A DNA stretch of 64,000 nucleotides, taken from the NCBI RefSeq assembly GCF_001050235.1, contig NZ_DF967972.1, positions 2,927,901 to 2,991,900 of the forward strand, in the 5' to 3' direction. Source of the DNA: Longilinea arvoryzae (GTDB taxonomy: Bacteria > Chloroflexota > Anaerolineae > Anaerolineales > Anaerolineaceae). Position 1 is the first letter of the stretch; each line of letters starts with the position of its first letter. A program made the position numbers and the translations under genes. Shown one piece after another: positions 17,862 through 32,408 of this stretch. The notes beneath the pieces were generated by a model. The model made no database searches and was not told the origin of the DNA. It saw only the letters and a list, made by a program, of their open reading frames with translations.

Positions 17862-17901
17862 CAAAAAACGAATGTCCCCTTTCCGGGGTGGAAAGGGGAC
17901 A
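17862..17901 (-). terminator. Terminator of the TPR/protease operon
   Basis: On the minus strand a perfect eleven-base-pair stem (GTCCCCTTTCC with GGAAAGGGGAC), five-base loop, then ATTCG and six T. It stands 26 bases after the protease stop codon and closes the whole minus-strand gene cluster. Confidence 0.9.
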
Positions 17902-17926
17902 TCGAACCTGATCATTCAGGAGGATA

Positions 17927-20545
17927 TCAACGCGATACGGCCAGTTTGATGACCTTGCCGTGTTCATCCAGCGTCACCCGGGCATACTGGGTATGCTCCC
18001 GGCGCGCCGCCGGAATGGTTTTGGTGATGGTCACGACATAGTGGTTCAACTCTGGCAGAGCCTTTTTCCGTCCTTTGGCCACGCTACCCGTATTCGCCGC
18101 CTGGGGATTCGCTTCGGGTTTCAACAGGCAAACCTGCACCTGCGAATTCTCCAGTCCCGGCAGGTAGGACTCCACGGTTTTCTTCACTGATGTGATCCAC
18201 TCGGATCGGATCGTCTCAGGTCCATCCGCGGGCATGGATTGATCACTGACCGTCTTGATGGAAATTCCAATTTTCATGCGCAGCGCCTGCTTCGACTGCC
18301 GGACAGCCAGTTCTGCGGACGCCAGGGGATCGCCGTAAAGGACGAAGGAAAGCAATGTCTTCTGATCCTCGCCATCCAGGTAACCTTGCCGCCGGTTCAT
18401 CTCGCGAATCATGTTGATCTTGGCCAGCATTAAAGCCTCACCTGCCGTATAGCCTTCCTTCAACGACTTCCAGAACAACTGGCCGAGCAAATCGGCGCCC
18501 ACCAGCGGCGTGTTAACCGAGCCATACGAGATGCTGGTCGATCCCACCATCCCGAGCACTCCGATCGAGAGAAATTTGAGGGCAATCGATTGGGCTTCGG
18601 TTTTTCCGGCGACATGCCCACCGTAACAGGCTTCGCTGAAAACAACGCTGGGAGCGCGTCCGTTGCGCTGCAAATCAGCGGCCGTCAACGCGACAGGATA
18701 ATCCGGCCCACTGCCGGCATCGCCGAGATCGCGTTGGCCGTACCATTCGGCAGAGTCAATCACACCATGCAGATTGTAGTAATTCAGGCGCGCGGAGGTG
18801 ACCTTCTTGGGGTTGATACTGCCGGCAATCTCGGGTGGAGAGATATGTACATCGGTGGCCTGGGCTACCGGGCGGAACACCGCCACGGAGGAGCGCCGCC
18901 AGGCAGCCGCCGAATAACCAAATCCGTTGTTTTTGGAGCGCAGGGCGCGCCGGTTGCGCCAGGATTGCCAGGTGCGGTAGAAGATCGATTTCTTCCAGCC
19001 CTGGGTGGCTACGGCGCGCTGCTCGTGGAAACGCAGGTTCTGCCGGATCTGCTGCAACAGCAGGCCCGCGTCTGTTCCGCTCTCGCCGGGCAGGCGCCCC
19101 ACCAGCCATTCGGCAACGAAGTAATTGCCATCCGTCGACGCGTATGGATTGTCCGAAAGCACTTCGCTGTCCTGATCCTCGGTTGGATTGGGCAGCTTAT
19201 GGAAGGGCACGATCTGCTCGCCGCCGATGATCATCAGCGCGCCAATCCGCTCGCCGCGATGCGCCAGCGCCTTGTCCAAATCGCCCAATGATAATTTGAT
19301 CTTCCAGGGATCGTTGTTCTCCAGCGCAGTGATTCCGTATCTGGCCGTACAGACCGGGTCGTCTGGCAAGTACGCCAGAGCGCCCCAACCCTGACGCCGG
19401 CGGACGACCTCCGCCAGGTGATCCATCTCAGAGATCAACACCTGCGCGGATTGCTGGCCGTATTGGGCGATCAGGCCGGTGCGTGACGACAACACCACAT
19501 AGACCGGAAAACGCCCGTCCGATTGGCCAATGGCCGGTTTCTTGAGCTTCTTGGCCAGCTTCTCGAACTCACTCTGGATGGCATTCAGATCCTGCCCGTC
19601 GCGAACGCCGGCTGTTTTCGTCTCGGGCGGCATTTTTGGCATGGTTTCGCTGACAGCCGCCGGGGTTTCGGACTGAGGCATTTCGACGATTTCCTCAGGC
19701 AGTGAAGTCATTGGCGGTTCGACCGTCTGCGTTTTTTCCGGCAGATGATTCATCCCCAGGCGCGAAGCGACATCGGCCGGGATGGGCGAATCGAAGCGAA
19801 TGGTCAACTCGCCAGGCCACAGCGGCTGGTAGGCATGTTGGTTGCCCATCCAACGCCGGGCAACCAGACCGGCCGAATCGCGCGTGACGCACTCATGCAG
19901 CAGCGCGACGGCCGAAGCTTCGTCGCCGCTTTCCATCAACATCTCAGCCGTCACATACTGGAATGCCAGACAATCGGGCCAGCGTTCGTGATACATATCG
20001 GCCAACTGGCGCACCGCCAGCCAATCCTGTTGAACCCGGTTGATTTTGAGGTGCAGAAGATCGACCAAAGGCAGCCCGGAATCGACGATCAGCGCCTGGT
20101 GGATCAACTCTTCCGCTGCCTGGGTTTCCTGGCGTTCAAGCCTGACCAGACTCTCACGCGCCGGTTTACTCCATTCCGGCAGACGTACATTACGCGGGCT
20201 TGGGCCTCCCAGGGCATACACCGCTCCCCACCATTGAGCCATCTGTTCGTCGCTGGCTTCGCCTTTCAGATCGATCAGCGCCTGATAGGCCTCCCGATCC
20301 TCGGGGTCGATCTGGATGACTTTCTCCAGGGTCGTCCGCGCCTGCGCAGTTTTTCCGTCCGCCAGCAATGCCAATCCCAGCAAACGGTTGACTTCCAAAT
20401 CTCCGGGATACGCCACCAGCCAGGTCATCGCGGCCTGACGGGCAAATTTGACCGCGTTGACCTCGATTCCAACTTTCAACAGCCGGACCAGCTCAGATCG
20501 CGTCATCAATGAAGGATAGAAATCTTCCTGATACCCTAATGCCAT
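17927..20545 (-). CDS. TPR protein with gingipain/caspase-like (C25-type) protease domain
   Basis: 872 residues, no signal peptide or membrane helix, so predicted cytoplasmic. Residues about 1-270 are TPR-like helices; a Pro/Glu/Thr-rich linker (about 280-325) leads to a clan CD protease domain. Evidence: an N-terminal sub-domain with LMIIGGEQIVPFHKLP, SDNPYASTDGNYF and LVGRLP as in C25 peptidases, His593 in NLHGVID, Cys640 in FSEACYGGHV, and the closing LSFVLYGDPLA, which corresponds to the VFGDP motif of gingipains. A C-terminal domain of about 80 residues follows. Secreted gingipains have signal peptides; this one does not. Its start overlaps the giant TPR gene by ten bases, with AGGAGG upstream, so the two are coupled. 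The substrate is unknown. Confidence 0.82.
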   Translation of the reverse strand: MALGYQEDFYPSLMTRSELVRLLKVGIEVNAVKFARQAAMTWLVAYPGDLEVNRLLGLALLADGKTAQARTTLEKVIQIDPEDREAYQALIDLKGEASDEQMAQWWGAVYALGGPSPRNVRLPEWSKPARESLVRLERQETQAAEELIHQALIVDSGLPLVDLLHLKINRVQQDWLAVRQLADMYHERWPDCLAFQYVTAEMLMESGDEASAVALLHECVTRDSAGLVARRWMGNQHAYQPLWPGELTIRFDSPIPADVASRLGMNHLPEKTQTVEPPMTSLPEEIVEMPQSETPAAVSETMPKMPPETKTAGVRDGQDLNAIQSEFEKLAKKLKKPAIGQSDGRFPVYVVLSSRTGLIAQYGQQSAQVLISEMDHLAEVVRRRQGWGALAYLPDDPVCTARYGITALENNDPWKIKLSLGDLDKALAHRGERIGALMIIGGEQIVPFHKLPNPTEDQDSEVLSDNPYASTDGNYFVAEWLVGRLPGESGTDAGLLLQQIRQNLRFHEQRAVATQGWKKSIFYRTWQSWRNRRALRSKNNGFGYSAAAWRRSSVAVFRPVAQATDVHISPPEIAGSINPKKVTSARLNYYNLHGVIDSAEWYGQRDLGDAGSGPDYPVALTAADLQRNGRAPSVVFSEACYGGHVAGKTEAQSIALKFLSIGVLGMVGSTSISYGSVNTPLVGADLLGQLFWKSLKEGYTAGEALMLAKINMIREMNRRQGYLDGEDQKTLLSFVLYGDPLASAELAVRQSKQALRMKIGISIKTVSDQSMPADGPETIRSEWITSVKKTVESYLPGLENSQVQVCLLKPEANPQAANTGSVAKGRKKALPELNHYVVTITKTIPAARREHTQYARVTLDEHGKVIKLAVSR

Positions 20546-23500
20546 GCCTGAGCCTCCTGAGAGTGTTGGACGAGATTCAATGCAATCACGGCGCCGAGCT
20601 GACGGCGGATGTTCAAATCATTGGGCGCCAGTTCTGCTGCCTTACGCAGCATTTTTTCAGCGGAAGAATAATCCTTTGCATCCCGTAAAGCCGCGGCAGC
20701 CAGGACGTAGGCCCGCGTGTCGGTCGGGGCCACCCGGATGGCCTGTTGGAAGGCCACAATGGCCTTTTCCTGTTCGCGGCGTTCCTGGTAGACTTTCCCC
20801 AGTTCCAGATAACCCTCGACTTCCACCGGACTGAGCTGAACGGCTTCGGTCAGGTGATAGACGGCCTGGTCCAATTGTCCGCCGGCTGCCTTGATTTGTC
20901 CCATCAGTAATTGCAGGTTGGCCTGATTGGGTTCGTAGCGCAGCGCGTGTTGCGCGGATTTTTCAGCCCCGGCCGAATCGCCGCATTCGTACTGGACTGT
21001 CGCCAGAATGGCCAGAAGCTTGACGCTGTTCGGGAATTTCTTTAGCGCCTCTTTGGCTGCCGGCAGGGCCGCAGCCGAACCATACACTTGGCGAATCAGT
21101 TCGAGACGCTCGACCTGGAGGACCAGTTCTTGAGTCAATAGACCCGAAGCCTGTTCCAGCGCCGCCAGGGCTTCCTGCAATTTGCCCCGTTTTTCCAGCA
21201 GGTGGACGTTGAAGATCACCACCTCGGGAATGGTACTGCCGTGTTTGAGCGCCTGATCGCTGATCGATTGCGCTTCGGTCAGATTACCCATCTGGATGAG
21301 GATTTCCCCCTGCATCAACAGCGCCTGAAGCGCGTCGGGGTCGACTGCGGCTGCGCGCTGGGCGCACTGCAAAGCGCGCTCGAAGTGCCCGGCGCGCAGA
21401 TGCGCTTCGGCAAGCACCAGCCAGCATTGCGGATTGTTTGCGTCCTGACGGCTGGCGGTTTCGAGCACGTCGATCGCCTTGCCATAATTCCGGGTTTCCA
21501 GGAAGACAACCCCCAGATTGAACGTGTATCCGGCCTGCTCGGGCTGCAGAGTGTGCGCCGCCTCCCAATGTTGAATGGCTGCGGCTGGATCGCCCAATGC
21601 CTGGCTCAGTCGAGCCAGTTCGGCCTGCCAGATGGGCTCATCCGGCCAGATTTGAATGGCCGATTGCCAGGCTTCCATTTCTTCCGCGGGTTGGTCGTTC
21701 TTGGATAACAAAACGGCGCGGAGGGCGTGGAAAAGCGGCTGTCGCGGTTCCAATTCGACTGCCTGTTGCGCGAAGGCCATTGCTTTTTCGGCGTCTTTGG
21801 ACATCAGATAAACCGCGGCCTGAGCATAAACCTCGGGCTGGTCACCGGCCTGTTCAACCGCCTGGAGGACAGCGGAGGTATTTCCACCCTGGGCGATGCC
21901 GATCACCAGAGCCGCCTTGTCGGTTGGCGGGTGCCCTTCGGTCAAAGTATGCTTGAATTGGCCCGCGTTCGATGGGAGAACCAGTTTCCCGATCTGACGC
22001 AACTCGGAGATCTTGGGCGACCCGCTGAACTGGCTCGCTGCCAATAAGGCATTTTCGAAAGCTTCGATCTGCCCCGCTTTGACGTTCGGATTATGGGTCG
22101 TCGCATGGACGCCATCGCACAAACGGGTGGCCTTGCTGCGTTGGACCAGCAGGCTGGCGAATTGATAATGCCCGACCGCCTCGCGGGCGTAGTTCTCGCG
22201 TCCGGTTTCAAGGTAGCGGTTGGCCGCATCCCAGCGATACAGATCCCGGGCGACCTCTCCCAACCAGATCGGTGCGTATTCCAGCAGATCGAGATGATAG
22301 ACCGTTCGGCTCGAATCCGAAGCGATGGGTTCAGCTTTTTCCAACGAAGTTTTCACCTCGTCGAATAGTTCTCCAGCCGCCGCATATTCACCGTTTCGGG
22401 CCAATAAACGGGCCTGAATGGCCTTCATGCGGGGCTGGACTGCGCCTTTTTCAAGGATTGGATTGACAATCCCTGAAACATCGTCCTCGTTTCCATCCTC
22501 GAGTAATAATTCGCAGCGCAGCGCCTGAAGAGTCTGCCAGCAGGCTTCAGCATCATCGTGAAGCAGGGTCTCGGTAAAAGCCGGTTTTTCGATGGCGGTC
22601 AGCTCAAGGACGTGATCGAATTGGAGTTGAGAATAGGCCAACCCGGCCATCAATAAACGGATCGAAAGATCGTCCGGCAGGATGTCCAGGGCTTTTTCGG
22701 CGAAGAAAAGCGCGCCCGAGATATCGCCCTGTTTTTTCAACAAAACCGCTGATCGCGAATAAATCGCGGCCGGGTTGAAAATGGCGTTATCGGCCGTGAA
22801 CAGGCTGCTGTTCTGGCGTGGCGGCTGCTTTTCCGAAATCGACTTGCTTTCCATCAAACGGGCCGCTTTCTCCAGGCAGGCCAACGCGGCCTGCGTGCGA
22901 GTCTGCTGAGCCAATAAATCCGCCTGAAGAACATGCAGGCGGATATTTTGATCATCCACCTTGACTGCCTTTTCGGCGTAGACCATCGCGCCCTGGAAAT
23001 CGTTATCACGCTGGCTCAAGAAAGCCAGATCGCATAACAGGCCCGCCGATGGCGCATCCGTTGTGGCTTCGATTTTCTTCATGCAGGCCAGCGCGTGCGA
23101 ATAATCTTCCAATTTCAGGTGAAAACTGGCCGCCTGGCGCAACTCTGTCTCGGAAACGTTCGATAATTGTTCAAGCTCGGCCAGCATTTTTTCGGCAGTC
23201 TCAGGTTGGTTCGCCGCCAGCGCGAACTGGGCCCGTTTCAACCACAAGCCGCTCCGTTCCGGCGAAAGCTGAACTGCGGTTTCCAACGCACGCTGAGCTT
23301 CATCCAGATTCCCCAGGCGTTCCATGATATTCGAATACCAGACGAGGTTATCCACCTGATCCGGTTCCATTTGCAGAGCCCGGCCGGCAGCGCGCGCAGT
23401 CTCCTGAGCCAGGTTCGACTTCAAATAAGTCTCCGCCAGCAGATGCATCACGCCCAGATCTTCCGGATTCTTTTGCAGAACCTCCTGCAGACAGGCCAGC

Positions 23501-25962
23501 GCGGTATCCAGTTCATTTGCGGCTAATGCGGCCGCGCCAAATCCAGCCTGCACCCGATTATGAAGGCTTTCATCTTTTACTCCACACTCGTCCAGCAATT
23601 GTTGGTAAGCATCGAAAGCGGCTTGGGTCTGACCCCGTAAGCGCAGAAGATCTGCCATCCACATCCGGGCGGTAAAATCGGTCGGTGAAATCGCCAGAAT
23701 CTTTTGCAAAACCTGCGTCAGGCGCTGCAACAGGAGCGGATCGTAATCCGCCGGCATGGCCGCATAGAGCTGCTCTGGAGTTTGCAAATACATCTGCACA
23801 TAGAATTGCAACCACTCGATTTCCGGCTTTTCAGCCTTGACGGCAATCTCCAGTGATTCCAGCGCCTTCTGGCGGTTTCCAAGATCCTGGAGAGTCAGAG
23901 CTTCCAGATAAGCCAGTTGCGCATTCTTGGGCCAGCGCTGGCGGGCTTCCGACAAAATCTTCGCGGCCTCGGCGTGATGCCCCAACTGGCGCAGTGTCTT
24001 CGCCAGTTCGGTGGTTACCGAAGGCACCTCCGGGGATAGCCGGGCTGCCTGGCGCAGGTAAGGCAGTGCATCCGTCAGATAGCCCTGATCGAGCAACATA
24101 CGGGCCAGTTGGAAATGGACTTCCGAGGAATCCGGCACGGCCAGGATTGCAGCCCGCAGAGTGTCCAGGGCGCGCTGGGTATCGCCTTTCTTCTGCTGGG
24201 CTTCGGACAGTGCCAACCATGTGCGCGGAGAATCGGCACACAGGAGGGTCGCCCGGCTGAGGTGGCTCACCGCATCGTCCACTTTGCCTTGGCGCAACAA
24301 CGCCTGCCCCTTGAGCGTGTGCGCGATTCCATGTTCAGGCTGGGCTGCCAGAATTTGATCGCAGGAATTCACCGCCAATTCGGCTTCTCCGGCCTGAATG
24401 GCGCAGTTCGCCAGCGCAAGTTGATCTTCGAGGCCGGCGTTTTCAGTATTTTCAAGGATGAACTGGCGCTGCTCCAGGGACTTCGTCCATTGATTCTGGT
24501 CTTCCAACCGGTGAGCCAACTCACGCCTGAATTGCATATTCTGGGGTTGAAGCATGACCATTGTTTCCACATCGGCGGTCGCCTGATCATACTCGCCCTG
24601 TTTCTCTTCGATCAAGGCTGCGATTTGCAGCAAATCCGGATCGTTGGGGCGCTTCTGCAAGAATGCATCTGCGCACCGGGTAGCTTCCGGGAGCAGATCC
24701 AGGCCAACCAGCGTATTGAGCGCTTGAGCCAGGCTTCCATCCAGTTCGAATGTCTGCCATGAAGCATTCTTCCGTTCCGAAAGCCATTCTTCAACCGCCC
24801 GGCTGGCCGTCTGGCGCGCCAACTCGGTATTATCTCCGGCCGCCATCTGACGAGCCAGGTACAGCGCAGAAAGAAATTCTGGTTCCCAGCCGGTGGATGG
24901 GATTTTCACATCCAACAATCCCGTCTGATGCAAAATAGATGCACCGCGTTCGATCAGCTTTGGATCCTGGCTGATCTTGTAGGCCTTTTCCACTTTAGCG
25001 ACCGCGACATCGGTCTTTTGGTCTTGAGCGTCCAGGACGGCGTTTTGGATCTGAACCCCTGCCAGGCAATAAGCCAGGAGCGTCTGCGCCTTTTCGAGCA
25101 TGCCGGCGGCCTGCAGGGATGCTCCGGCGCACTGATAGATCACGGCAGCCTGCTGGTATATCGCGGCCTGGTCAAGGACCGCCTGGTAAGGCGCCTGAGA
25201 AGGAATGTATTGTATTTTCAACCCATCGAAAACGGTCTGGTTGTCCGCCAGCAGCATTCTGGCGATTTTTCCGGCCAGAGCCTCCCGCCCTACAGATTGG
25301 AGTCTTGCTAGCCAGGCAGACTGGACCGCCAGCGGTGCGTCGATGATCAGGCCGGTCAGCTTCCGAGCCTGTTCATCCTCGCCGGCCGGGTTACTCAAAA
25401 GGATATGAAGGCACCAACCCATGCCCACCACCGGGTTCTTATCCAGAAGCGCCTTGAGAATTTCATCCCGATCCGGAATCAGGGTATAGAGGCAGGCCAG
25501 CGCGCTTTCCCAAATCCCGGCCATTCGTTCCTGACCGAGGCCGCTCTTGATCAACAGGTCATCCGTCAAACCGGTCCAGGAACGGGTTTTCCGGCGTCGT
25601 TCGCGCAATGCCAGTGCCAACAGCCCGGCTTCCTTCAGATCGGCCGGCTCGCGGCCGGTACGCAGCGTTTCTTCGAATACAGCCAGTGCGCGCCGCTGCA
25701 GGTTGCCATCCAGCACCGTCAGCGGCTCCCGGCGTAAACTGTCTGCGTTCAGATCGGTCTCGAGTGCAAACAAAGCCAGATTGGCGGGACACCACGGTTC
25801 AACGGTTTGTTTTTCCGCCTGACGTTGCGCGTACTGTTCCAAATCCAATTGCGGCAGGATCTTCCACACCAACGGGTCGTGCCGCAGCGCGATCAGCGTT
25901 TCGGGAATGCTTTTTGAATCGCAGCTATTTTTGAGCGAAGATAAGACGGCTTTGGTTTGCAT
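20536..25962 (-). CDS. Giant tetratricopeptide-repeat protein
   Basis: About 1808 residues built almost wholly of TPR-like helical pairs, for example ALLRQGKVDDAVSHLSRATLL, MLLDQGYLTDALPYLRQAARL and GYLELGKVYQEREQEKAI-type units near the C-terminus. The first ~130 residues are not recognisably TPR. No signal peptide, membrane helix or catalytic motif is seen. Such solenoids bind proteins or peptides. ATG 25962 has AAGGGG five bases upstream and begins MQTKAVLSSLKN; an in-frame upstream ATG at 26043 would overlap the preceding gene. It starts 35 bases after the small membrane protein and overlaps the start of the protease gene, which suggests the two products act together, as scaffold, regulator or substrate receptor. 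Confidence 0.88.
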   Translation of the reverse strand: MQTKAVLSSLKNSCDSKSIPETLIALRHDPLVWKILPQLDLEQYAQRQAEKQTVEPWCPANLALFALETDLNADSLRREPLTVLDGNLQRRALAVFEETLRTGREPADLKEAGLLALALRERRRKTRSWTGLTDDLLIKSGLGQERMAGIWESALACLYTLIPDRDEILKALLDKNPVVGMGWCLHILLSNPAGEDEQARKLTGLIIDAPLAVQSAWLARLQSVGREALAGKIARMLLADNQTVFDGLKIQYIPSQAPYQAVLDQAAIYQQAAVIYQCAGASLQAAGMLEKAQTLLAYCLAGVQIQNAVLDAQDQKTDVAVAKVEKAYKISQDPKLIERGASILHQTGLLDVKIPSTGWEPEFLSALYLARQMAAGDNTELARQTASRAVEEWLSERKNASWQTFELDGSLAQALNTLVGLDLLPEATRCADAFLQKRPNDPDLLQIAALIEEKQGEYDQATADVETMVMLQPQNMQFRRELAHRLEDQNQWTKSLEQRQFILENTENAGLEDQLALANCAIQAGEAELAVNSCDQILAAQPEHGIAHTLKGQALLRQGKVDDAVSHLSRATLLCADSPRTWLALSEAQQKKGDTQRALDTLRAAILAVPDSSEVHFQLARMLLDQGYLTDALPYLRQAARLSPEVPSVTTELAKTLRQLGHHAEAAKILSEARQRWPKNAQLAYLEALTLQDLGNRQKALESLEIAVKAEKPEIEWLQFYVQMYLQTPEQLYAAMPADYDPLLLQRLTQVLQKILAISPTDFTARMWMADLLRLRGQTQAAFDAYQQLLDECGVKDESLHNRVQAGFGAAALAANELDTALACLQEVLQKNPEDLGVMHLLAETYLKSNLAQETARAAGRALQMEPDQVDNLVWYSNIMERLGNLDEAQRALETAVQLSPERSGLWLKRAQFALAANQPETAEKMLAELEQLSNVSETELRQAASFHLKLEDYSHALACMKKIEATTDAPSAGLLCDLAFLSQRDNDFQGAMVYAEKAVKVDDQNIRLHVLQADLLAQQTRTQAALACLEKAARLMESKSISEKQPPRQNSSLFTADNAIFNPAAIYSRSAVLLKKQGDISGALFFAEKALDILPDDLSIRLLMAGLAYSQLQFDHVLELTAIEKPAFTETLLHDDAEACWQTLQALRCELLLEDGNEDDVSGIVNPILEKGAVQPRMKAIQARLLARNGEYAAAGELFDEVKTSLEKAEPIASDSSRTVYHLDLLEYAPIWLGEVARDLYRWDAANRYLETGRENYAREAVGHYQFASLLVQRSKATRLCDGVHATTHNPNVKAGQIEAFENALLAASQFSGSPKISELRQIGKLVLPSNAGQFKHTLTEGHPPTDKAALVIGIAQGGNTSAVLQAVEQAGDQPEVYAQAAVYLMSKDAEKAMAFAQQAVELEPRQPLFHALRAVLLSKNDQPAEEMEAWQSAIQIWPDEPIWQAELARLSQALGDPAAAIQHWEAAHTLQPEQAGYTFNLGVVFLETRNYGKAIDVLETASRQDANNPQCWLVLAEAHLRAGHFERALQCAQRAAAVDPDALQALLMQGEILIQMGNLTEAQSISDQALKHGSTIPEVVIFNVHLLEKRGKLQEALAALEQASGLLTQELVLQVERLELIRQVYGSAAALPAAKEALKKFPNSVKLLAILATVQYECGDSAGAEKSAQHALRYEPNQANLQLLMGQIKAAGGQLDQAVYHLTEAVQLSPVEVEGYLELGKVYQERREQEKAIVAFQQAIRVAPTDTRAYVLAAAALRDAKDYSSAEKMLRKAAELAPNDLNIRRQLGAVIALNLVQHSQEAQAWH

Positions 25963-25997
25963 GGATGCCCCTTGCAGTAGATTTACGTGTGAACCGA

Positions 25998-26324
25998 TTA
26001 ATGAAGCTGAACGACCAGGCCGTAAGCCGCTGCCATCATGCAAAAGCTGACCAGGATCAGAAAAACACCCACGCCGGCCGAGGTTTTAACCAGCGAATTC
26101 AGGGCTTCGATGAGGGACGAAGCGTTCCCAACCAGGCCGGCAACGTCTTCAGCGATCCCTTTTTGTGCCAAACGAGCGGTTTGATTCGCGATGGTCTTGA
26201 TTTCTTTGCCTACGACGCGGGAAATCAGGACATAAATGCCAATCGCCAGAACGACGACCGCCAAAGCCAGCAGACAGCCGGCCATGGTCAAAATAAAATC
26301 GTTGAATGACATTGAAAAAAACAT
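25998..26324 (-). CDS. Small two-helix membrane protein of the sigma-54 cluster
   Basis: 108 residues: a hydrophobic helix at about 10-35 (FILTMAGCLLALAVVVLAIG), a polar, probably helical middle (EIKTIANQTARLAQKGIAED, about 40-75), and a second hydrophobic helix at about 82-104. No family recognised. ATG 26324 has a near-perfect AAGGAGG five bases upstream. It is the first gene downstream of a sigma-54 site and heads the stretch that continues into the giant TPR and protease genes. A role as membrane anchor or sensor for the complex is inference. Confidence 0.78.
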   Translation of the reverse strand: MFFSMSFNDFILTMAGCLLALAVVVLAIGIYVLISRVVGKEIKTIANQTARLAQKGIAEDVAGLVGNASSLIEALNSLVKTSAGVGVFLILVSFCMMAAAYGLVVQLH

Positions 26325-26360
26325 CCCCGCCTCCTTGAGAAATTCTCTGAGGACGAGGAT

Positions 26361-26375
26361 GCAAGTAGTGTGCCA
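26361..26375 (-). promoter_or_regulatory. Sigma-54 (-24/-12) promoter of the membrane protein/TPR/protease genes
   Basis: On the minus strand TGGCAC, five bases, TTGCA: an intact -24 GG and -12 GC pair with exact spacing. It lies 12 bases after the stop of the NtrC-type activator gene and about 37 bases before the next start codon. Confidence 0.85.
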
Positions 26376-26386
26376 GGGTGATCGGA

Positions 26387-27568
26387 TCAGTCGCTTGCCG
26401 CGGTCTTCGAGACTTCCGAAGGTAGATCGGCCAATTCGATGGTCTCTCCGTCGCAGAACAGCATGGCCCGTTCAATGGCGTTGCTCAACTCGCGAATATT
26501 CCCCGGCCAATCGTAGGCTGTCAGGGCCGCCAGCGCCCGGGGAGATATGTTGGTCACATTGCAACCCTGCCGCCCGTTGTACTGGCGAATGAAGAATCCA
26601 ACCAATTCAGGGATGTCGATTTTTCGTTCGCGTAATGGCGGCACATGAAGATCGACCACCTTGAGTCGGTAGAAAAGGTCTTCGCGGAATTGGCCCTCTT
26701 TTATCAAAGTGGCCAATGGTCGGTTGGAAGCGGCCACAATTTGTACATCGATTTTGATCATCGCTGTGCCGCCCACCCGCCGGAAGGCGCGCTCTTCGAG
26801 CGCCCGCAGGAGTTTGGCCTGAATGTCCACTGGCATCGAGGCAATTTCATCCAGGAAAAGAACGCCCCCGTCGGCCACTTCCATCAGGCCGGTCTTGCGT
26901 TTTTCAGCGCCCGTGAAAGCGCCGGCTTCGAAGCCAAAAAGCTCTGCCTCGAGCATGGTATTCTGAATGGCGGCGCAGTTGATGGCTATGAAAGGTTTAC
27001 CCGCGCGCGGGCCGTTGGCATGAATGAATTTGGCCAGCACTTCCTTGCCGCTGCCCGTATCGCCGGTGATCAACACGGAAACCGATTTTTCAGCGGCTTT
27101 TTGGGCCTGCGTCAATACTTCGTGCATGATCGGGCTCTTTCCGACGATGAATTGATTCTTCTGCTGCTGCGATTTCCGTAAATGAGCCAGTTCGCGGCGC
27201 AGAGCCACCACCTCGCCGGCGCGTTCGATCGATTTTTCAAGTTGATTCAATTGGATAGGCTTGGTGAGAAAATCATGAGCACCGTTCTTCATCGCATCGA
27301 CCGCCATATCGATGTCGCCGTAAGCGGTGATCAGGATGATCGGCGGGCGCAGCGGCATGGCTGCCGTCTCATAAAGCAGATTGGGGCCGTACCCATCCGG
27401 TAATTGCACATCCAGTAAAACCACATCCGCATCGCCGCGCTGCAAACTGGCGCGTCCTTCGGCCAGGGTGGCCGCGCCGATGACCGCATACCCTTTTGCA
27501 GTCAGAAATAGCCCGATGTTTTCCCGGGCGTTGTCTTCATCATCTATGATCAGAACGGTCATTCCCAT
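26387..27568 (-). CDS. NtrC-type sigma-54 activator lacking a DNA-binding domain
   Basis: 393 residues. A receiver domain (DDED near residue 10, phospho-acceptor in LLDVQLPDGYG near residue 53, Lys in TKPI) is joined to an AAA+ domain with Walker A (GDTGSGKE near 170), the sigma-54-contacting GAFTGA loop at 216-221, Walker B (GGVLFLDEIA) and the arginine-finger region (FREDLFYRLKV). The protein stops about 15 residues after the AAA+ domain, where typical NtrC proteins carry a Fis-type helix-turn-helix, so it should activate sigma-54 from solution. Its gene starts two bases after the kinase stop codon; a sigma-54 promoter follows its own stop. Confidence 0.94.
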   Translation of the reverse strand: MGMTVLIIDDEDNARENIGLFLTAKGYAVIGAATLAEGRASLQRGDADVVLLDVQLPDGYGPNLLYETAAMPLRPPIILITAYGDIDMAVDAMKNGAHDFLTKPIQLNQLEKSIERAGEVVALRRELAHLRKSQQQKNQFIVGKSPIMHEVLTQAQKAAEKSVSVLITGDTGSGKEVLAKFIHANGPRAGKPFIAINCAAIQNTMLEAELFGFEAGAFTGAEKRKTGLMEVADGGVLFLDEIASMPVDIQAKLLRALEERAFRRVGGTAMIKIDVQIVAASNRPLATLIKEGQFREDLFYRLKVVDLHVPPLRERKIDIPELVGFFIRQYNGRQGCNVTNISPRALAALTAYDWPGNIRELSNAIERAMLFCDGETIELADLPSEVSKTAASD

Positions 27569-27570
27569 GA

Positions 27571-29526
27571 TTAGACATCCTCGCTGGCAGGTAGATTTAC
27601 AAAAAACATTGTACCACCGGGAAAAGTATTCACCGTAATGCTGCCGCGATGTGCTGTAACGATGCGTTTGGTAATGGCCAGGCCCAGGCCGGTGCCCTGG
27701 GATTTGGTGGTTACAAAAGGCTCGAAGATGTGCTCACGCACGTGTTCGGGGATTCCAGGTCCGTCATCCGAAACTGTGACCTGGATTTGCGGGCGGTTCC
27801 CGACGGCCGTGCCCTGTGAAACCTTGACGGCGATGGTCCCATTTCCGCGTGTTCCCAGCACGTCCACCGCGTTGCTGATCAGGTTTGTAAAGACCTGTTC
27901 GAGCATGCGCGCGTCACCGTAGACTTCCGGGTGCTCGAGATCGGTTTGATAGAAGGCTTTGACGTTCACGCGGGTCATGCGCGGCCGCCAACGATCCAGA
28001 ATCCGTTGGAGCAAGAAACCGACGTCCATCATCTCGAACTTTGGCTCAATCGTGCGCGAGAAGGTCAACACGGATTCCATGAGGTGATTTAACCGCTGGC
28101 AGTCGTTTTCCATGCGGTTCATCACCTCCAGGTTCGGATCGTCCGCCGAAAGCCGGCTGGTGATCAACTGGATGCCCGTCGAAATGTTGTTGATCGGGTT
28201 GCGCACTTCATGCGCAAAGATGGCCGTGAATTCGCCCAGCAGAGCGCGATGCTCCAACTGCTGGCTGTGCAGGCGGATCTCTTCATGCTCGCTGACGTCG
28301 TTGATGATGATGGCGATCGCCAGCGGGCGTTCATCCCGCACGATTGGCAGGACCTGGATATGGGCCGGGAAGGATTGGCCATTTCGGCGGTTCAATGAAA
28401 CGCCGCTGATATTATGCGTGGGTTGTCCCTGGCGGGCATTTTGCAGGGCGGGGATGATTCTTTCCGAACCGATCAACACATTCTCGACCGGCTGCCCCCT
28501 GACTTCCCAATCCCCATACCCCAGCAGCCACTCGGCGGCCGGATTGATGTCACTCACGATCATCTCAGGGGTTACCAACACAATTCCTTCCTGGACGGAT
28601 TCAACGATAGAGGATTGAATCGATAATCCCTGTTCGAGCGCCAGGTTCTTTTGACGCAGCTCCTCGACCAATAGAAAATAATTATGCGCGGAGGTTAAGA
28701 ATGCGGCAAACAACCGAAGAATTTGGGGCAGCCGCTGCATCGCCTGTTTCGAGCGATCACCGACAACAATCAATCCCACCTGCGCCCTGGCGTTACCCAA
28801 AGGACAGGTTCCCAGATAAGAAAGATTTTGCATCCGGGCCGAGATATGCAATTCGGTCTGGACGCGTTTCCCCTGAATCCAGACCTGGGCATCGCCCAGG
28901 CGAATGAGGTCGGAGGATGGAATCCGGTCCGGTAATGTGACGCCGTTTTCAATCGTCGAGATTTTTCTTAATTCTGGCACATTGCAATCGGCATGATAGA
29001 TAGAGACAACCTCAGCCGCCAAAAGCGTCTTCAGCGTGCCGGTTGTCCAGTTTACAGCTTCTTCGAAATTATCCATCTCATTGAGAGATGCAATTTCTGT
29101 AATCGCCTTCAACCACAGGGCCTGGTTGCGGATATCGGTCTGATAATAGTCCTCGAGTGGTATCAGTTCCAGAATGGCCAGTTGATTGGAGCCCTCGATA
29201 GGTTGGATTTGCCCCATGACGGTTTGCGGCGGTCGGCTGTTGCGCATTATGGTAACTTCCACCGAGTTTCTCGCTTGCAGTTTTCCCAGACCATCGTCGG
29301 GCAGAATGGCATCCACGGACCGTCCAGACACATCCATCAAAGGGAAAGCCGATATTTTCATGAACGCGCTGTTTGCGGCCAGGATCAGGCGCGAATCGAC
29401 ATCCACAACGAGCGTCGGCACATCGAGATGGTTCAATAACCCCCAGAATAAGTTTTGCGCTTCAGCTTCCAGTTGCTTGGCCGGCCAGGATACTTTGCGT
29501 GGATTCAGGGGGAGAGTCGGTGTCAT
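27571..29526 (-). CDS. Soluble PAS-GAF-PAS histidine kinase
   Basis: 651 residues with no membrane segment. PAS at about 25-125 (VVDVDSRLILAANSAFMKI), a GAF-like domain at about 145-300, a second PAS at about 310-425 (VQEGIVLVTPEMIVSDINPA), HisKA with phospho-accepting His439 in IFAHEVRNPINN, and a HATPase domain with NLISNAVDVL, VSDDGPGIP and GTGLGLAITKRIV. The NtrB-like HEVRNP box fits its position just before the NtrC-type activator, which is its evident partner. It starts 15 bases after the rpoN stop. The signal is not deducible; Cys residues in the GAF part (ADCNVPE, LGTCPLG) could be a redox or cofactor site, which is speculation. Confidence 0.93.
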   Translation of the reverse strand: MTPTLPLNPRKVSWPAKQLEAEAQNLFWGLLNHLDVPTLVVDVDSRLILAANSAFMKISAFPLMDVSGRSVDAILPDDGLGKLQARNSVEVTIMRNSRPPQTVMGQIQPIEGSNQLAILELIPLEDYYQTDIRNQALWLKAITEIASLNEMDNFEEAVNWTTGTLKTLLAAEVVSIYHADCNVPELRKISTIENGVTLPDRIPSSDLIRLGDAQVWIQGKRVQTELHISARMQNLSYLGTCPLGNARAQVGLIVVGDRSKQAMQRLPQILRLFAAFLTSAHNYFLLVEELRQKNLALEQGLSIQSSIVESVQEGIVLVTPEMIVSDINPAAEWLLGYGDWEVRGQPVENVLIGSERIIPALQNARQGQPTHNISGVSLNRRNGQSFPAHIQVLPIVRDERPLAIAIIINDVSEHEEIRLHSQQLEHRALLGEFTAIFAHEVRNPINNISTGIQLITSRLSADDPNLEVMNRMENDCQRLNHLMESVLTFSRTIEPKFEMMDVGFLLQRILDRWRPRMTRVNVKAFYQTDLEHPEVYGDARMLEQVFTNLISNAVDVLGTRGNGTIAVKVSQGTAVGNRPQIQVTVSDDGPGIPEHVREHIFEPFVTTKSQGTGLGLAITKRIVTAHRGSITVNTFPGGTMFFVNLPASEDV

Positions 29527-29541
29527 AAGATTAAGGTCGGA

Positions 29542-30939
29542 TTAGTTTGCGTGACGTAAATGCGCAGGCAGGATGCCTTCCATGGCGCGGTATTTGGCGA
29601 CCGTGCGCCGCGCAACATTAAACCCGCGTTCGGCCAGCAGCTCTGCCAGCTCCGAATCGCTGAGTGGGCGGGTTTCCTGATCGATAAAATCGCGCAGGAT
29701 CGTGCGGACATTCAGACTGCGGTCGAAGAAGGAAGAGAGCGGAATGATGCGCCGGTTGGGAAGTTGAACGCATTTACCCGAAACCGCGCGGGAAATGGTG
29801 GATTCGTGAACTTCCAATTCCTCCGACAATCTGGCCCGCGTGAAGGGCTTGAGAAATTTCTCTCCCATTAGAATGTAGTCCCGCTGCAGCATGACCAGGC
29901 GATACATCATGCGTTGCATGGTGTGGTTGCGCTGCTGCAGGCATTTTACGAACAGCGACGCCCGTTCCAGATCGCTGCGCATGTTGTCCCGTGTGTCCGC
30001 GTCCGTCTGTTGTAAGGCTTGCTTGAACATCGGGCTGACCCGCAGCACGCCCGAAAGCGGCATGATGATTTCCACTACCAGTGCTTTATGCACATCCCCG
30101 TTCAAATGGCTGATGATGATATCCGGTTGGTGGTAAACCTGCTCGGTGGATTCCGAAGGCAGGCGCACATCTCCCCAGTGAGATCGCGCCGGGAATGGAT
30201 TCAAGTTCTCAGCGATGAAATGGGCCGCCTGCTGCACCCGGGTCAGGCTGGCGCCGAGTTGTCTGGCCAGTTCATTCAATTGGTGCCGGCTGAGGAGATC
30301 CATCCCTTCCGAGACGATTTTCCAGGCCAACTCTGGTACATTTTGCTGTTCCTGTAACACATCGAGTTGAACCAGCAACGCTTCGGTCGGATTTCTCGAG
30401 CCGACGCCGACCGGATCCGCGCGCTGGATCATGCTCTTTACCGCTTCCACCTGCTGCAGGCTGACATGCAGGTAGTGGGAAATTTCAACCAGACTGATCG
30501 TCAGGAACCCATCTTCATTCAGGTGAGTCAGCAAATAAGCCGCGATGCTGCGTTGTGAAGAGTCGAGATCGGCCGCGATTTGCTTCAACACATAGGTGGG
30601 CAGATCATCCGTCATGGGCGAAACGGGCTCATCCGGATAATCTTCCGGACTGCGATCGGAATGGGAATAGAAATCATCGCGCGGCGATATGAAGACAACG
30701 GGCTCTTCGATCGAGTCCACCGTCGGCCGGCTGCAAATCGGGCAGATGCCACCACTTTCCAGCGGTCGGCGGCAGACCGGGCAGCGCCGCTCTTCCACCA
30801 GTTCCAAAGCTGGATTGGCGGCAAGCTCAGACTCGATTTGCTGTTGTAATTCTTCGCCAGTCAGGCTCAACAGTGCCATCGTCTGTGCCAGATGTGCTGT
30901 GGTTGCAGGTCGTATGGTGTGAAACTGACCTTGAAACAT
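29542..30939 (-). CDS. rpoN: RNA polymerase sigma-54 factor with an inserted CxxC ribbon
   Basis: 465 residues. Region I (LAQTMALLSLTGEELQQQIE) is normal, the core-binding and HTH parts are present (ARLSEELEVHESTISRAVSGK), and the C-terminal RpoN box reads ARRTVAKYR. Between region I and the core, where region II is usually acidic, lies CPVCRRPLESGGICPIC, two CxxC knuckles spaced as in a zinc ribbon. I do not know this insertion from textbook RpoN. It heads the minus-strand cluster with its kinase and activator. ATG 30939 has AGGGG six bases upstream. A sigma-54-type promoter precedes it, so it may amplify its own synthesis. Confidence 0.94.
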   Translation of the reverse strand: MFQGQFHTIRPATTAHLAQTMALLSLTGEELQQQIESELAANPALELVEERRCPVCRRPLESGGICPICSRPTVDSIEEPVVFISPRDDFYSHSDRSPEDYPDEPVSPMTDDLPTYVLKQIAADLDSSQRSIAAYLLTHLNEDGFLTISLVEISHYLHVSLQQVEAVKSMIQRADPVGVGSRNPTEALLVQLDVLQEQQNVPELAWKIVSEGMDLLSRHQLNELARQLGASLTRVQQAAHFIAENLNPFPARSHWGDVRLPSESTEQVYHQPDIIISHLNGDVHKALVVEIIMPLSGVLRVSPMFKQALQQTDADTRDNMRSDLERASLFVKCLQQRNHTMQRMMYRLVMLQRDYILMGEKFLKPFTRARLSEELEVHESTISRAVSGKCVQLPNRRIIPLSSFFDRSLNVRTILRDFIDQETRPLSDSELAELLAERGFNVARRTVAKYRAMEGILPAHLRHAN

Positions 30940-30983
30940 ATTGACCCCTTATCGTAAGAGTATAGCCGGTAAGCGGTATAGGT

Positions 30984-30998
30984 GCAAGTTCCATGCCA
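30984..30998 (-). promoter_or_regulatory. Sigma-54 (-24/-12) promoter upstream of rpoN
   Basis: On the minus strand TGGCAT, GGAAC, TTGCA, a close match to the -24/-12 consensus. A possible sigma-70 promoter overlaps: TTGCAC (30987-30982), 17 bases, TATACT (30964-30959). The -12 element of one is the -35 of the other, so the two polymerases would compete. Confidence 0.72.
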
Positions 30999-31052
30999 GA
31001 GGAATTTTCATACAAAATGGTAGAATTAGACATTCTATCGTTAGGATACTGC

Positions 31053-32408
31053 ATGAGCGATCTGATCATCGTTGGCGGCGGCCTGGCCGGTTGTGAAGCG
31101 GCCTGGCAGGCGGCTCAACGTGGAATTAAAGTATTTTTATATGAAATGCGCCCAAATGTCATGACCGGCGCGCATCGAACGGCGCAGCTTGCCGAGCTGG
31201 TGTGTTCGAATTCGCTGGGCTCGAGTCTCTTGGACCGTCCTTCCGGCCTGTTGAAGGAAGAACTCCGGCGGATGGGCTCGCTGCTGGTGGATTGCGCCGA
31301 TCGGGCAGCTCTCCCGGCCGGCGGCGCGCTGGCGGTCGATCGCGAGGTTTTTGCGTCCCTGGTCACCCGGGCTATCGAAAGCCACCCCAACATCCGGATC
31401 ATCCGCGAAGAAATCACATCCATTCCAAACCAGCCGGCCATCATTGCCTCCGGGCCGCTTACCTCCGCGAATTTGATTACGAGCATTCAACAATTGACGG
31501 GCGAAGACCACCTGTTCTTCTTCGACGCCATTGCTCCGGTCGTCCAGGCGGAGTCGGTCGATATGCAAATTGCCTACCGGGGTTCGCGCTACAAGGTCGG
31601 CAGCGCTGAAGCCGGCGATTATATCAATTGCCCGATGAGCGAGGATGAATACCACGCCTTTGTCGACCAACTCCTCGCGGCCGATCGCATCCAACTTCGC
31701 GATTTCGAAGGGGAAATTCGAGAGGGCGTCCGCGCCGGCGAAAACCATTTCTTCGAAGGCTGTCTACCGGTCGAGATTCTGGCCGAACGCGGTCGGGATA
31801 CCCTGGCTTTTGGTCCCATGCGCCCCATCGGCCTGCGCGGGCCAGGCCGAGGCGCTCGAAAAACCTTTGCCGTGCTGCAATTGCGTCAAGACGATCTGGC
31901 TGGCAGCCTGTTCAATCTGGTCGGCTGTCAGACGAACCTGACATTTGCGGAGCAGAGCCGGGTTTTTCGCCTGATTCCAGGTCTGCAAAACGCCGAATTC
32001 GCCCGTTATGGACAGATGCACCGGAATACGTTTATCGCGTCGCCGCGCCTGCTGTCAGCCACGCTCCAAACCCGCGAATATCCCGACCTGTTCTTCGCCG
32101 GGCAAATCACCGGCGTGGAGGGATATATGGGCAACATTGCCACCGGCCTTCTGGCAGGCGTAAATGCGGCCCGGGTATTGCGCGGCATTCCCCCGCTGAC
32201 CTTGCCCCCGGCCACCATGCTCGGCGCATTGTGCAATTACATTTCCCATGCGAATCCAGCCGACTTTCAACCCATGAAAGCCAATTTTGGAATTCTCCCG
32301 CCGATTGCGCACCCCAAGATCAGCCGCCGCGAACGCGCCATTCAATGCGTCGAACGCGCTTTGCTGTCCCTCGATCCCATCCTGTCCCAATTCCAAATTA
32401 ATTCCTGA
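31053..32408 (+). CDS. trmFO: Methylenetetrahydrofolate--tRNA-(uracil-5-)-methyltransferase
   Basis: 451 residues. The FAD-binding N-terminus DLIIVGGGLAGCEAAWQAA, YEMRP, CSNSLGS and the C-terminal ITGVEGYMGNIATGLLAG are diagnostic of TrmFO (formerly Gid). It makes ribothymidine at position 54 of tRNA using methylene-THF and FAD, as in most Gram-positive and many deep-branching bacteria. ATG 31053 is chosen because it gives the family N-terminus; an in-frame ATG at 30993 would add 20 residues. The gene diverges from rpoN across a 113-base gap. The M28 peptidase gene follows after 11 bases. Confidence 0.96.
   Translation: MSDLIIVGGGLAGCEAAWQAAQRGIKVFLYEMRPNVMTGAHRTAQLAELVCSNSLGSSLLDRPSGLLKEELRRMGSLLVDCADRAALPAGGALAVDREVFASLVTRAIESHPNIRIIREEITSIPNQPAIIASGPLTSANLITSIQQLTGEDHLFFFDAIAPVVQAESVDMQIAYRGSRYKVGSAEAGDYINCPMSEDEYHAFVDQLLAADRIQLRDFEGEIREGVRAGENHFFEGCLPVEILAERGRDTLAFGPMRPIGLRGPGRGARKTFAVLQLRQDDLAGSLFNLVGCQTNLTFAEQSRVFRLIPGLQNAEFARYGQMHRNTFIASPRLLSATLQTREYPDLFFAGQITGVEGYMGNIATGLLAGVNAARVLRGIPPLTLPPATMLGALCNYISHANPADFQPMKANFGILPPIAHPKISRRERAIQCVERALLSLDPILSQFQINS

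Follow-up and report, generated by a model that had tools for sequence, protein, structure and literature searches.

A sigma-54-linked gene set joining a TPR-caspase-type protease and a second FtsZ in Longilinea arvoryzae: a candidate module for septation and cell separation

What does a bacterium control when its sigma-54 gene stands in one row with a kinase, an activator, a small protein with two predicted helices, a giant tetratricopeptide repeat (TPR) protein and a caspase-type protease? The question arises from a 64,000-nucleotide stretch of the Longilinea arvoryzae genome (contig NZ_DF967972.1, positions 2,927,901 to 2,991,900 of the forward strand), hereafter termed the window; the source genome comprises 4,438,311 bp in two scaffolds. 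An earlier interpretation made from these letters alone, here called the sequence-only reading, had described six genes on the minus strand as a self-contained sigma-54 circuit and had suggested stress response, defence or regulated death as its role. All six genes were located where it had placed them. On balance, and with some reserve, we favour another role, namely a sigma-54-switched module for septation and cell separation. Read from sequence, the evidence comprises the gene content and order, the promoter sites, a single activator, the co-occurrence of a second FtsZ (FtsZ2), and a C-terminal domain common to the protease and a neighbour of ftsZ2.

The gene set in the window

The features of the locus, all on the minus strand, are as follows.

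30983..30998, minus strand: −24/−12 (sigma-54) site TGGCATGGAACTTGCA before rpoN; perfect consensus, rpoN ATG 43 nucleotides downstream
29542..30939, minus strand: rpoN, sigma-54, 465 amino acids (Pfam; RpoN box ARRTVAKYR; sole genome copy found)
27571..29526, minus strand: PAS histidine kinase, 651 amino acids, no transmembrane segment (Pfam, hydropathy)
26387..27568, minus strand: NtrC-type activator, 393 amino acids, receiver and AAA+ domains with GAFTGA (Pfam, motif, own-genome search)
26360..26375, minus strand: −24/−12 site TGGCACACTACTTGCA before the effector genes; perfect consensus, SMALL ATG 35 nucleotides downstream, kept in relatives
25998..26324, minus strand: SMALL, 108 amino acids, two hydrophobic segments, no Pfam family
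20536..25962, minus strand: giant TPR protein, 1808 amino acids from the ATG at 25962 (Pfam TPR)
17927..20545, minus strand: TPR and C25-type cysteine protease, 872 amino acids, dyad His593/Cys640 (Pfam, conservation, model and fold)
17871..17903, minus strand: intrinsic terminator 3' of the protease gene, 14-pair stem and T tail

The TPR gene and the protease gene share 10 bases, and an alternative TTG start at 26043 would make the TPR protein 1835 residues long. The strong terminator that had been predicted after the last gene is borne out by the 14-pair stem at 17903-17871, as is the two-helix character of SMALL by its two hydrophobic segments.

Conservation of the cluster

The class survey covered 396 drawn genomes, from which 40 rpoN neighbourhoods were fetched; f1 denotes a family with 11 drawn genomes and f2 its rpoN-less sister family with 20. 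The rpoN gene was found in 45 of the 396 genomes, including 11 of 11 in f1 and none in f2. The protease part, at a cut-off of 120 bits, was found in 43 (154 genomes matched overall, the remainder almost all via the TPR part). The two occur together in 35 genomes, rpoN alone in 10, the protease alone in 8 and neither in 343 (Fisher p 2e-33, relatedness ignored). Of the ten f1 loci that were fetched, eight keep the order rpoN-kinase-activator-SMALL-TPR-protease, and at L061, also of f1, the contig stops within the TPR gene. The arrangement is shared by at least five further families of the class; the same order recurs in families f5, f28, f29 and f57, with an insert in f28, so that the ordered co-occurrence proposed as a check by the sequence-only reading holds across several families. 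Variants include f9, where the protease lies just beyond the fetched stretch and extra kinase and receiver genes are present, and f56, where kinase and activator are swapped.

Among named genomes, the 80 best of 276 protease loci were kept for comparison. SMALL, TPR and protease genes stand together in 60 of these, 46 of which also have rpoN within 10 kb; the other 20 extend at most 5.0 kb upstream of the protease. Twelve of the 14 loci with no rpoN in range belong to rpoN-bearing genomes, and two (G407, G408) to drafts in which no rpoN was found. Anaerolinea thermolimosa (L252, L337) and three other genomes have the regulator trio apart from the effector genes. A lipoprotein-like gene of about 490-540 codons, named by eye and lying on the opposite strand, recurs in L330, L331, L332, L334, L335, L336 and L338, where it either separates the activator from the effector genes or follows the protease.

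Beyond the class, the protease was detected in 30 of 400 drawn genomes of the phylum, 18 of them outside the class. Neither rpoN nor a site before SMALL was seen in these 18 fetched stretches. The TPR gene adjoins the protease in ten of them and SMALL precedes in nine, and a TIM-barrel gene follows the protease in eight; no TPR or SMALL gene was found upstream of the protease in L356, L357, L359, L367 and L368, which extend about 10 kb or more upstream. Pfam-checked neighbours in four of the 18 stretches are an amidase (L358, L353), RsmH/MraW (L365) and a MreC-MreD-penicillin-binding protein (PBP) set (L364); in other stretches the neighbours are unrelated genes. The core parts are more widespread than their sigma-54 control, and in several genomes they lie beside wall or division genes.

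Placement and abundance of sigma-54 sites

The −24/−12 cores that the sequence-only reading had noted ahead of rpoN and of the last three genes are both perfect, and they are the sole perfect matches within the window. Allowing one mismatch raises the number in the window to 5, where 3.05 are expected; the number alone therefore proves nothing, and placement is what counts. Within −300 to +80 of the SMALL open reading frame (ORF) start, a site is present in 57 of 77 rpoN loci, compared to 3 of 24 loci without rpoN in range, which makes the proposed sigma-54 control of the small, TPR and protease genes likely. Over the same range in rpoN loci, sites were found at 0/91 activator, 1/86 kinase, 2/77 TPR and 5/71 protease genes and in 35/2900 random windows; the counts reach 20/44 at rpoN, 5/9 at ftsZ2 and 3/10 at the TIM-barrel gene, both with uncertain ORF starts. 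These placement counts are not independent, as some genomes were fetched by two routes. Nine of the ten fetched f1 loci have the site before SMALL, and it is retained in A. thermolimosa (L252) despite the separation of the genes. Feedback of sigma-54 on its own gene, another element of the sequence-only reading, is likewise likely, given the perfect site before rpoN.

The pattern TGGCAYN5TTGCW occurs 19 times in the source genome versus once when reversed, and TGGCAYN5TTGCA occurs 101 versus 16 times in f1 and 111 versus 25 times in f2. We rejected the reversed pattern as too lenient a control because the rpoN-less genomes exceed it too, and site counts alone were set aside as evidence for this reason and for the near-chance count in the window. 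Direct comparison of the two families gave 101 sites in 31.8 Mb (11 genomes) for f1 versus 111 in 72.6 Mb (20 genomes) for f2, that is, 3.2 versus 1.5 per Mb (Mann-Whitney p = 0.0003). This excess amounts to about five sites per genome, and the regulon is therefore likely small. The abundance of sites elsewhere that would have spoken against a dedicated circuit was not observed, the density being about twice that of rpoN-less relatives.

A second FtsZ behind the same kind of site

Two further perfect sites, among the 19 of the source genome, lie 1.36 kb apart, at C1:3183773 and C1:3185134, 256 kb from the window start. The former stands 32 nucleotides before the gene of a 449-residue protein, the TIM-barrel gene, and the latter lies in the 3' end of that gene, 27 nucleotides before ftsZ2. 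The description of the circuit as self-contained had to be abandoned, as sites also precede this distal operon and cell-wall hydrolase genes. FtsZ2 (L021:1544-2698) has the Tubulin and FtsZ_C domains, the GTP-binding motif GGGTGTG and the T7 loop of an FtsZ, and its C-terminal tail, LDLPAFMRRR, resembles LDVPAFLRNR of the housekeeping FtsZ.

Two FtsZ genes are present in 11 of 11 f1 genomes and in G289, compared to one in 20 of 20 f2 genomes. Each of the 11 f1 genomes, and G289 too, has a perfect site ahead of the FtsZ2 GTPase domain, at a distance of 74-1548 bp. Over the class, at least two FtsZ genes occur in 32/35 genomes with both rpoN and protease, 1/10 with rpoN only, 3/8 with protease only and 57/343 with neither; many members of families f38 and f39 that have neither rpoN nor the protease possess two or three FtsZ genes. 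In a tree, 30 housekeeping FtsZ sequences separate from 20 cassette sequences with a support of 0.98; the housekeeping sequences come from a single order, and no date is read from the tree.

The arrangement in other genomes joins this distal operon to the cluster. Five loci (L330, L331, L332, L335, L336) present rpoN, kinase, activator, TIM-barrel, ftsZ2, at least one further gene, SMALL, TPR and protease in that order; L330 is the genome of record CP070764.1, a chromosome-level metagenome-assembled genome. All five have sites before or at the TIM-barrel ORF start and in its 3' part before ftsZ2, in the same positions as the distal group in the source genome, and all except L330 have a site before rpoN. 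The presence of these genes within the cluster, with the same site positions, in five genomes supports placing ftsZ2 and the TIM-barrel gene in the regulon. In other families MraZ, FtsZ, amidase and TIM-barrel genes follow the protease in varying order (Pfam for genes of L126, L138 and L134; FtsZ alignment for eight such loci), and L134 has a fusion of the TIM-barrel gene with SpoIID. For the TIM-barrel protein we claim no enzyme activity, as its model matched aldolases, GH20 and GH128 at low template modelling (TM) scores only; its profile gave no match against PDB sequences.

Wall-related genes behind other sites

Among 76 f1 site instances, 55 lie upstream of a gene in non-coding DNA, 18 are intragenic and 3 have no downstream gene; in the f2 control of 17 loci, 8 of 16 sites are upstream of a gene. 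Leaving out the cassette, TIM-barrel and ftsZ2 genes and counting orthologues separately, wall-related domains were found in 14 of 39 scanned downstream genes, compared to 0 of 8 from rpoN-less genomes. The 14 are four GH25, three Amidase_3, three M23 (one with LysM), three LysM lipoproteins and one polysaccharide deacetylase; the sole such target in the source genome itself is an M23 peptidase (L007). A 2011 survey argues that sigma-54 controls the bacterial exterior (PMC3162934), and this wall theme fits that view. A perfect site at L019:1501-1516 (C1:3122861) stands 121 nucleotides before a CpaB-like gene, named by eye and followed by a receiver-domain-like gene, so that the targets may extend to a Tad-type pilus operon.

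The protease, the TPR protein and SMALL

Pfam assigned TPR and Peptidase_C25 domains to the protease, the latter with 48.9 bits against a cut-off of 23. All 20 aligned sequences, the window protein among them, have His593 and Cys640, and the sequence-only call of a gingipain/caspase-like protease is supported by the Pfam profile and by this dyad. The predicted model (predicted local distance difference test, pLDDT, 77.5) gave gingipain K (PDB 4rbm) as best Foldseek match with an E-value of 1.7e-7, followed at lower rank by TPR-CHAT (8eey, 8d9f) and human separase (9hma). As the query consists of three parts, its TM-scores are low, and the match supports the fold and not the function. Among the best 60 of 137 matches of the protease profile to PDB sequences, only TPR-type chains were found. 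Simple hydropathy found no N-terminal hydrophobic segment of the kind expected for gingipain-type secretion. Neither a Pfam hit nor a PADLOC match pointed to a CHAT domain as in Craspase; Cas7-11 was not searched genome-wide.

A single-sequence back-translated search in named genomes found no relative, and it was the alignment search that gave the 276 loci. Within the best 80 of these, the closest relatives are Longilinea records, with 69% in L235 and 75% over part of the protein in L312.

The C-terminal domain of the protease resembles the 72-residue protein encoded after ftsZ2 in the source genome, together with six counterparts of 78-86 residues (HHalign probability 98.7, E-value 3e-16, 79 columns). 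The 72-residue protein is a stand-alone copy of this domain.

One sigma factor, one kinase and one activator

The window rpoN product has the Sigma54 AID, CBD and DBD domains of Pfam together with the RpoN box, which is present in 40 of 40 fetched class loci (as ARRTVSKYR in two), and the own-genome search found one rpoN copy. The kinase has PAS, HisKA and HATPase_c domains. Of the predicted soluble PAS-GAF-PAS architecture, solubility (no transmembrane-like segment) and PAS (two PAS_4 stretches) are retained, whereas Pfam found no GAF domain. The activator consists of a receiver, Sigma54_activat (PF00158, 227 bits) and an AAA lid, with GAFTGA at position 216, as in enhancer-binding proteins; relatives vary this loop to GSFTGA, GAFTSA, GAFTDA, NAFTGA, NAYTGA and others. 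Pfam found no Fis or helix-turn-helix DNA-binding domain of the enhancer-binding type in the activator, which stops just past the AAA lid, a feature absent from the sequence-only reading. Past the WPGN motif, 27-40 residues remain in ten fetched f1 loci versus 89-123 in longer relatives. Judged by length, the Fis domain is absent from the f1, G289, G340 and f57 loci and retained elsewhere, in some loci alongside an additional receiver-domain gene; the loss of DNA binding may have occurred on more than one occasion.

The source genome has one strong sigma-54 activator, three other PF00158 matches all falling below 35 bits. Across 47 searched genomes (the 45 rpoN-bearing class genomes and two more), exactly one strong activator was found in 38, two in 7, three in 1 and none in 1. 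With one rpoN and one strong activator in the genome, the dedicated circuit suggested by the sequence-only reading stands. Sigma-54 is usually common to several activators. Here it seems dedicated to one programme, with a paralogue of FtsZ and a caspase-type protease among the expected products. According to PMC3162934, sigma-54 is present in only some Chloroflexi, single activators are found in Chlamydia and Borrelia, and activators without a DNA-binding domain are exemplified by CtcC and FlgR.

Two side observations concern rpoN itself. In a second context (L084-L086, L091-L094) the activator adjoins rpoN, and the fetched stretch has no SMALL, TPR or protease gene. A TrmFO-like gene, named by eye (window 30993-32408), starts divergently inside the rpoN promoter site, and its homologues flank rpoN in a number of relatives.

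A proposed mechanism and its weak points

We propose that a cytoplasmic signal is perceived by the soluble kinase, which then phosphorylates the activator. Lacking a DNA-binding domain, the activator would work from solution on every sigma-54 promoter; such action would be tolerable because it is the sole activator in the genome. With rpoN amplified through its own site, one kinase and one activator could turn on sigma-54, the TPR-protease complex, FtsZ2 and the wall hydrolases together. FtsZ2 might then form a conditional second ring or join the first, while the two-helix SMALL would tether the TPR protein and the protease to the membrane. The protease and the 72-residue ftsZ2 neighbour would both dock at one site through the C-terminal domain common to them. 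The division role and the proteolytic step are what we infer: the protease would cut a septum or wall-synthesis protein and commit the cell to separation, and the co-expressed hydrolases would split the wall. A bolder version, offered tentatively, is a second, inducible division machine in Chloroflexota, in which a sigma-54-dedicated FtsZ2 ring, a separase-like TPR-caspase protease, a giant TPR scaffold and a docking domain that ties the protease to FtsZ2 would cut filaments into cells on command.

Several points weigh against the septation and separation module. All compared genomes come from one phylum and are not independent. The link between rpoN and protease, though strong, is not universal: 10 of 45 rpoN genomes have no protease, which is the first of the refuting cases named in the sequence-only reading, and 8 of 43 protease genomes have no rpoN, some of these genomes being incomplete. 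In the single-contig genome G253 (L065, 11138-11174), SMALL is directly followed by the protease gene, and the cassette, intact otherwise, lacks the TPR gene, so not every member requires the TPR protein; this cassette also has no site. G340 has rpoN, kinase, activator and SMALL but a single FtsZ, and the 57 of 343 genomes with at least two FtsZ genes and neither rpoN nor protease make a second FtsZ alone not diagnostic. Sites are absent at 20 of 77 SMALL genes of rpoN loci and are found by ORF start at only 5 of 9 ftsZ2 and 3 of 10 TIM-barrel genes. The site density is only about double the rpoN-less level, and rpoN-less genomes are themselves above the reversed-pattern control. One of the eight control genes has a SpoIIM domain, and this might be counted among the wall-related domains. 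Finally, the 449-residue protein has no Pfam family, and its TIM-barrel-like model (pLDDT 78) has only weak fold matches.

Alternative readings

It is rather unlikely, in our judgement, that the circuit serves envelope stress or morphogenesis, with sigma-54 remodelling wall thickness, sheath or shape without division and FtsZ2 acting as a scaffold away from the division site. The proposal of sigma-54 as an exterior controller (PMC3162934) would suit this explanation. So would the LysM, GH25, M23 and deacetylase targets and the MreC-MreD-PBP neighbourhood in L364. Against it stand the housekeeping-like C-terminal tail of FtsZ2 and the membership of MraZ and RsmH in the division cluster.

Programmed lysis, for example the breakage of filaments at sacrificial cells, is less probable again: hydrolases would open the wall, the two-helix protein would perforate the membrane and the protease would act as executioner. 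Wall hydrolases behind the same kind of site, the gingipain/caspase-type fold match and the two hydrophobic segments of SMALL all agree with such a programme. On the other side, an FtsZ paralogue that is conserved and keeps its motifs and C-terminal tail fits growth and division better, as do the MraZ, RsmH or MreC-MreD-PBP neighbours of some genomes, and neither the protease nor SMALL matched PADLOC (the TPR protein was not scanned).

Defence by a stress-controlled TPR/caspase system akin to TPR-CHAT, toward which the sequence-only reading had leaned together with regulated death, now appears very improbable. The TPR-CHAT chains 8eey and 8d9f are among the weaker Foldseek matches of the protease, whereas Pfam gives C25 instead of CHAT and the linked genes are those of division and peptidoglycan. 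In a PADLOC-DB scan of eight proteins (the TPR protein left out), the activator alone matched, to RtcR-type and other models via its AAA and receiver domains, and the protease, SMALL, kinase and rpoN product did not; we rejected the defence reading on this lack of support. Conflict systems with caspase-like proteases in multicellular bacteria were described in 2020, with different gene sets in the accessible part of that work (PMC7159879).

That the rpoN and TPR/protease genes are neighbours by position only is hardly credible: genomes with one and not the other exist and the two groups stand apart in A. thermolimosa, but the order is kept over several families, SMALL sites are commoner in loci with rpoN than in those without it in range (57/77 versus 3/24), and the SMALL site is kept in A. 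thermolimosa (L252) even where the genes are apart.

If the septation and cell-separation module is real, filamentous bacteria would have been found to possess a second system of cytokinesis that can be induced, and a caspase-type protease to serve in bacterial division. L. arvoryzae KOME-1 and several relatives are termed filamentous in titles cited by PMC4574363, and Anaerolineae bacteria are known from digesters and activated sludge. The cluster also offers a handle on the formation and breakage of Anaerolineae filaments, and the cultured type strain makes RNA-seq, localisation and protease assays possible.

Comparison with known systems

A full-text literature search, which most subscription papers were outside, found no description of this gene set. 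The protease is closest to gingipain K, with which it shares a C25 score above the Pfam cut-off, the best fold match (4rbm) and the His/Cys dyad. It differs in lacking an N-terminal hydrophobic segment, in its N-terminal TPR and own C-terminal domain, and in its company of division genes. It also resembles TPR-CHAT (Csx29 of type III-E CRISPR) and separase in combining helical repeats with a clan-CD-type protease, and both are in its fold list; these matches are weaker than that of gingipain and arise partly via the helical repeats, so the likeness is one of architecture only.

The regulatory part recalls the CtcC/sigma-54 circuit of Chlamydia, which, according to PMC3162934, likewise has a single activator in the genome without a DNA-binding domain. 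In L. arvoryzae and its relatives, by contrast, rpoN and the genes for kinase, activator and effectors stand in a single conserved cluster associated with FtsZ2 and the protease. We know of no such cluster in Chlamydia. A second ftsZ outside the dcw cluster is found in a few bacteria, some in conserved loci, as PMC9871819 reports. Those paralogues and FtsZ2 are alike as second FtsZ copies with Tubulin and FtsZ_C domains; compared to them, the copy described here travels with a sigma-54 circuit and with TPR and protease genes.

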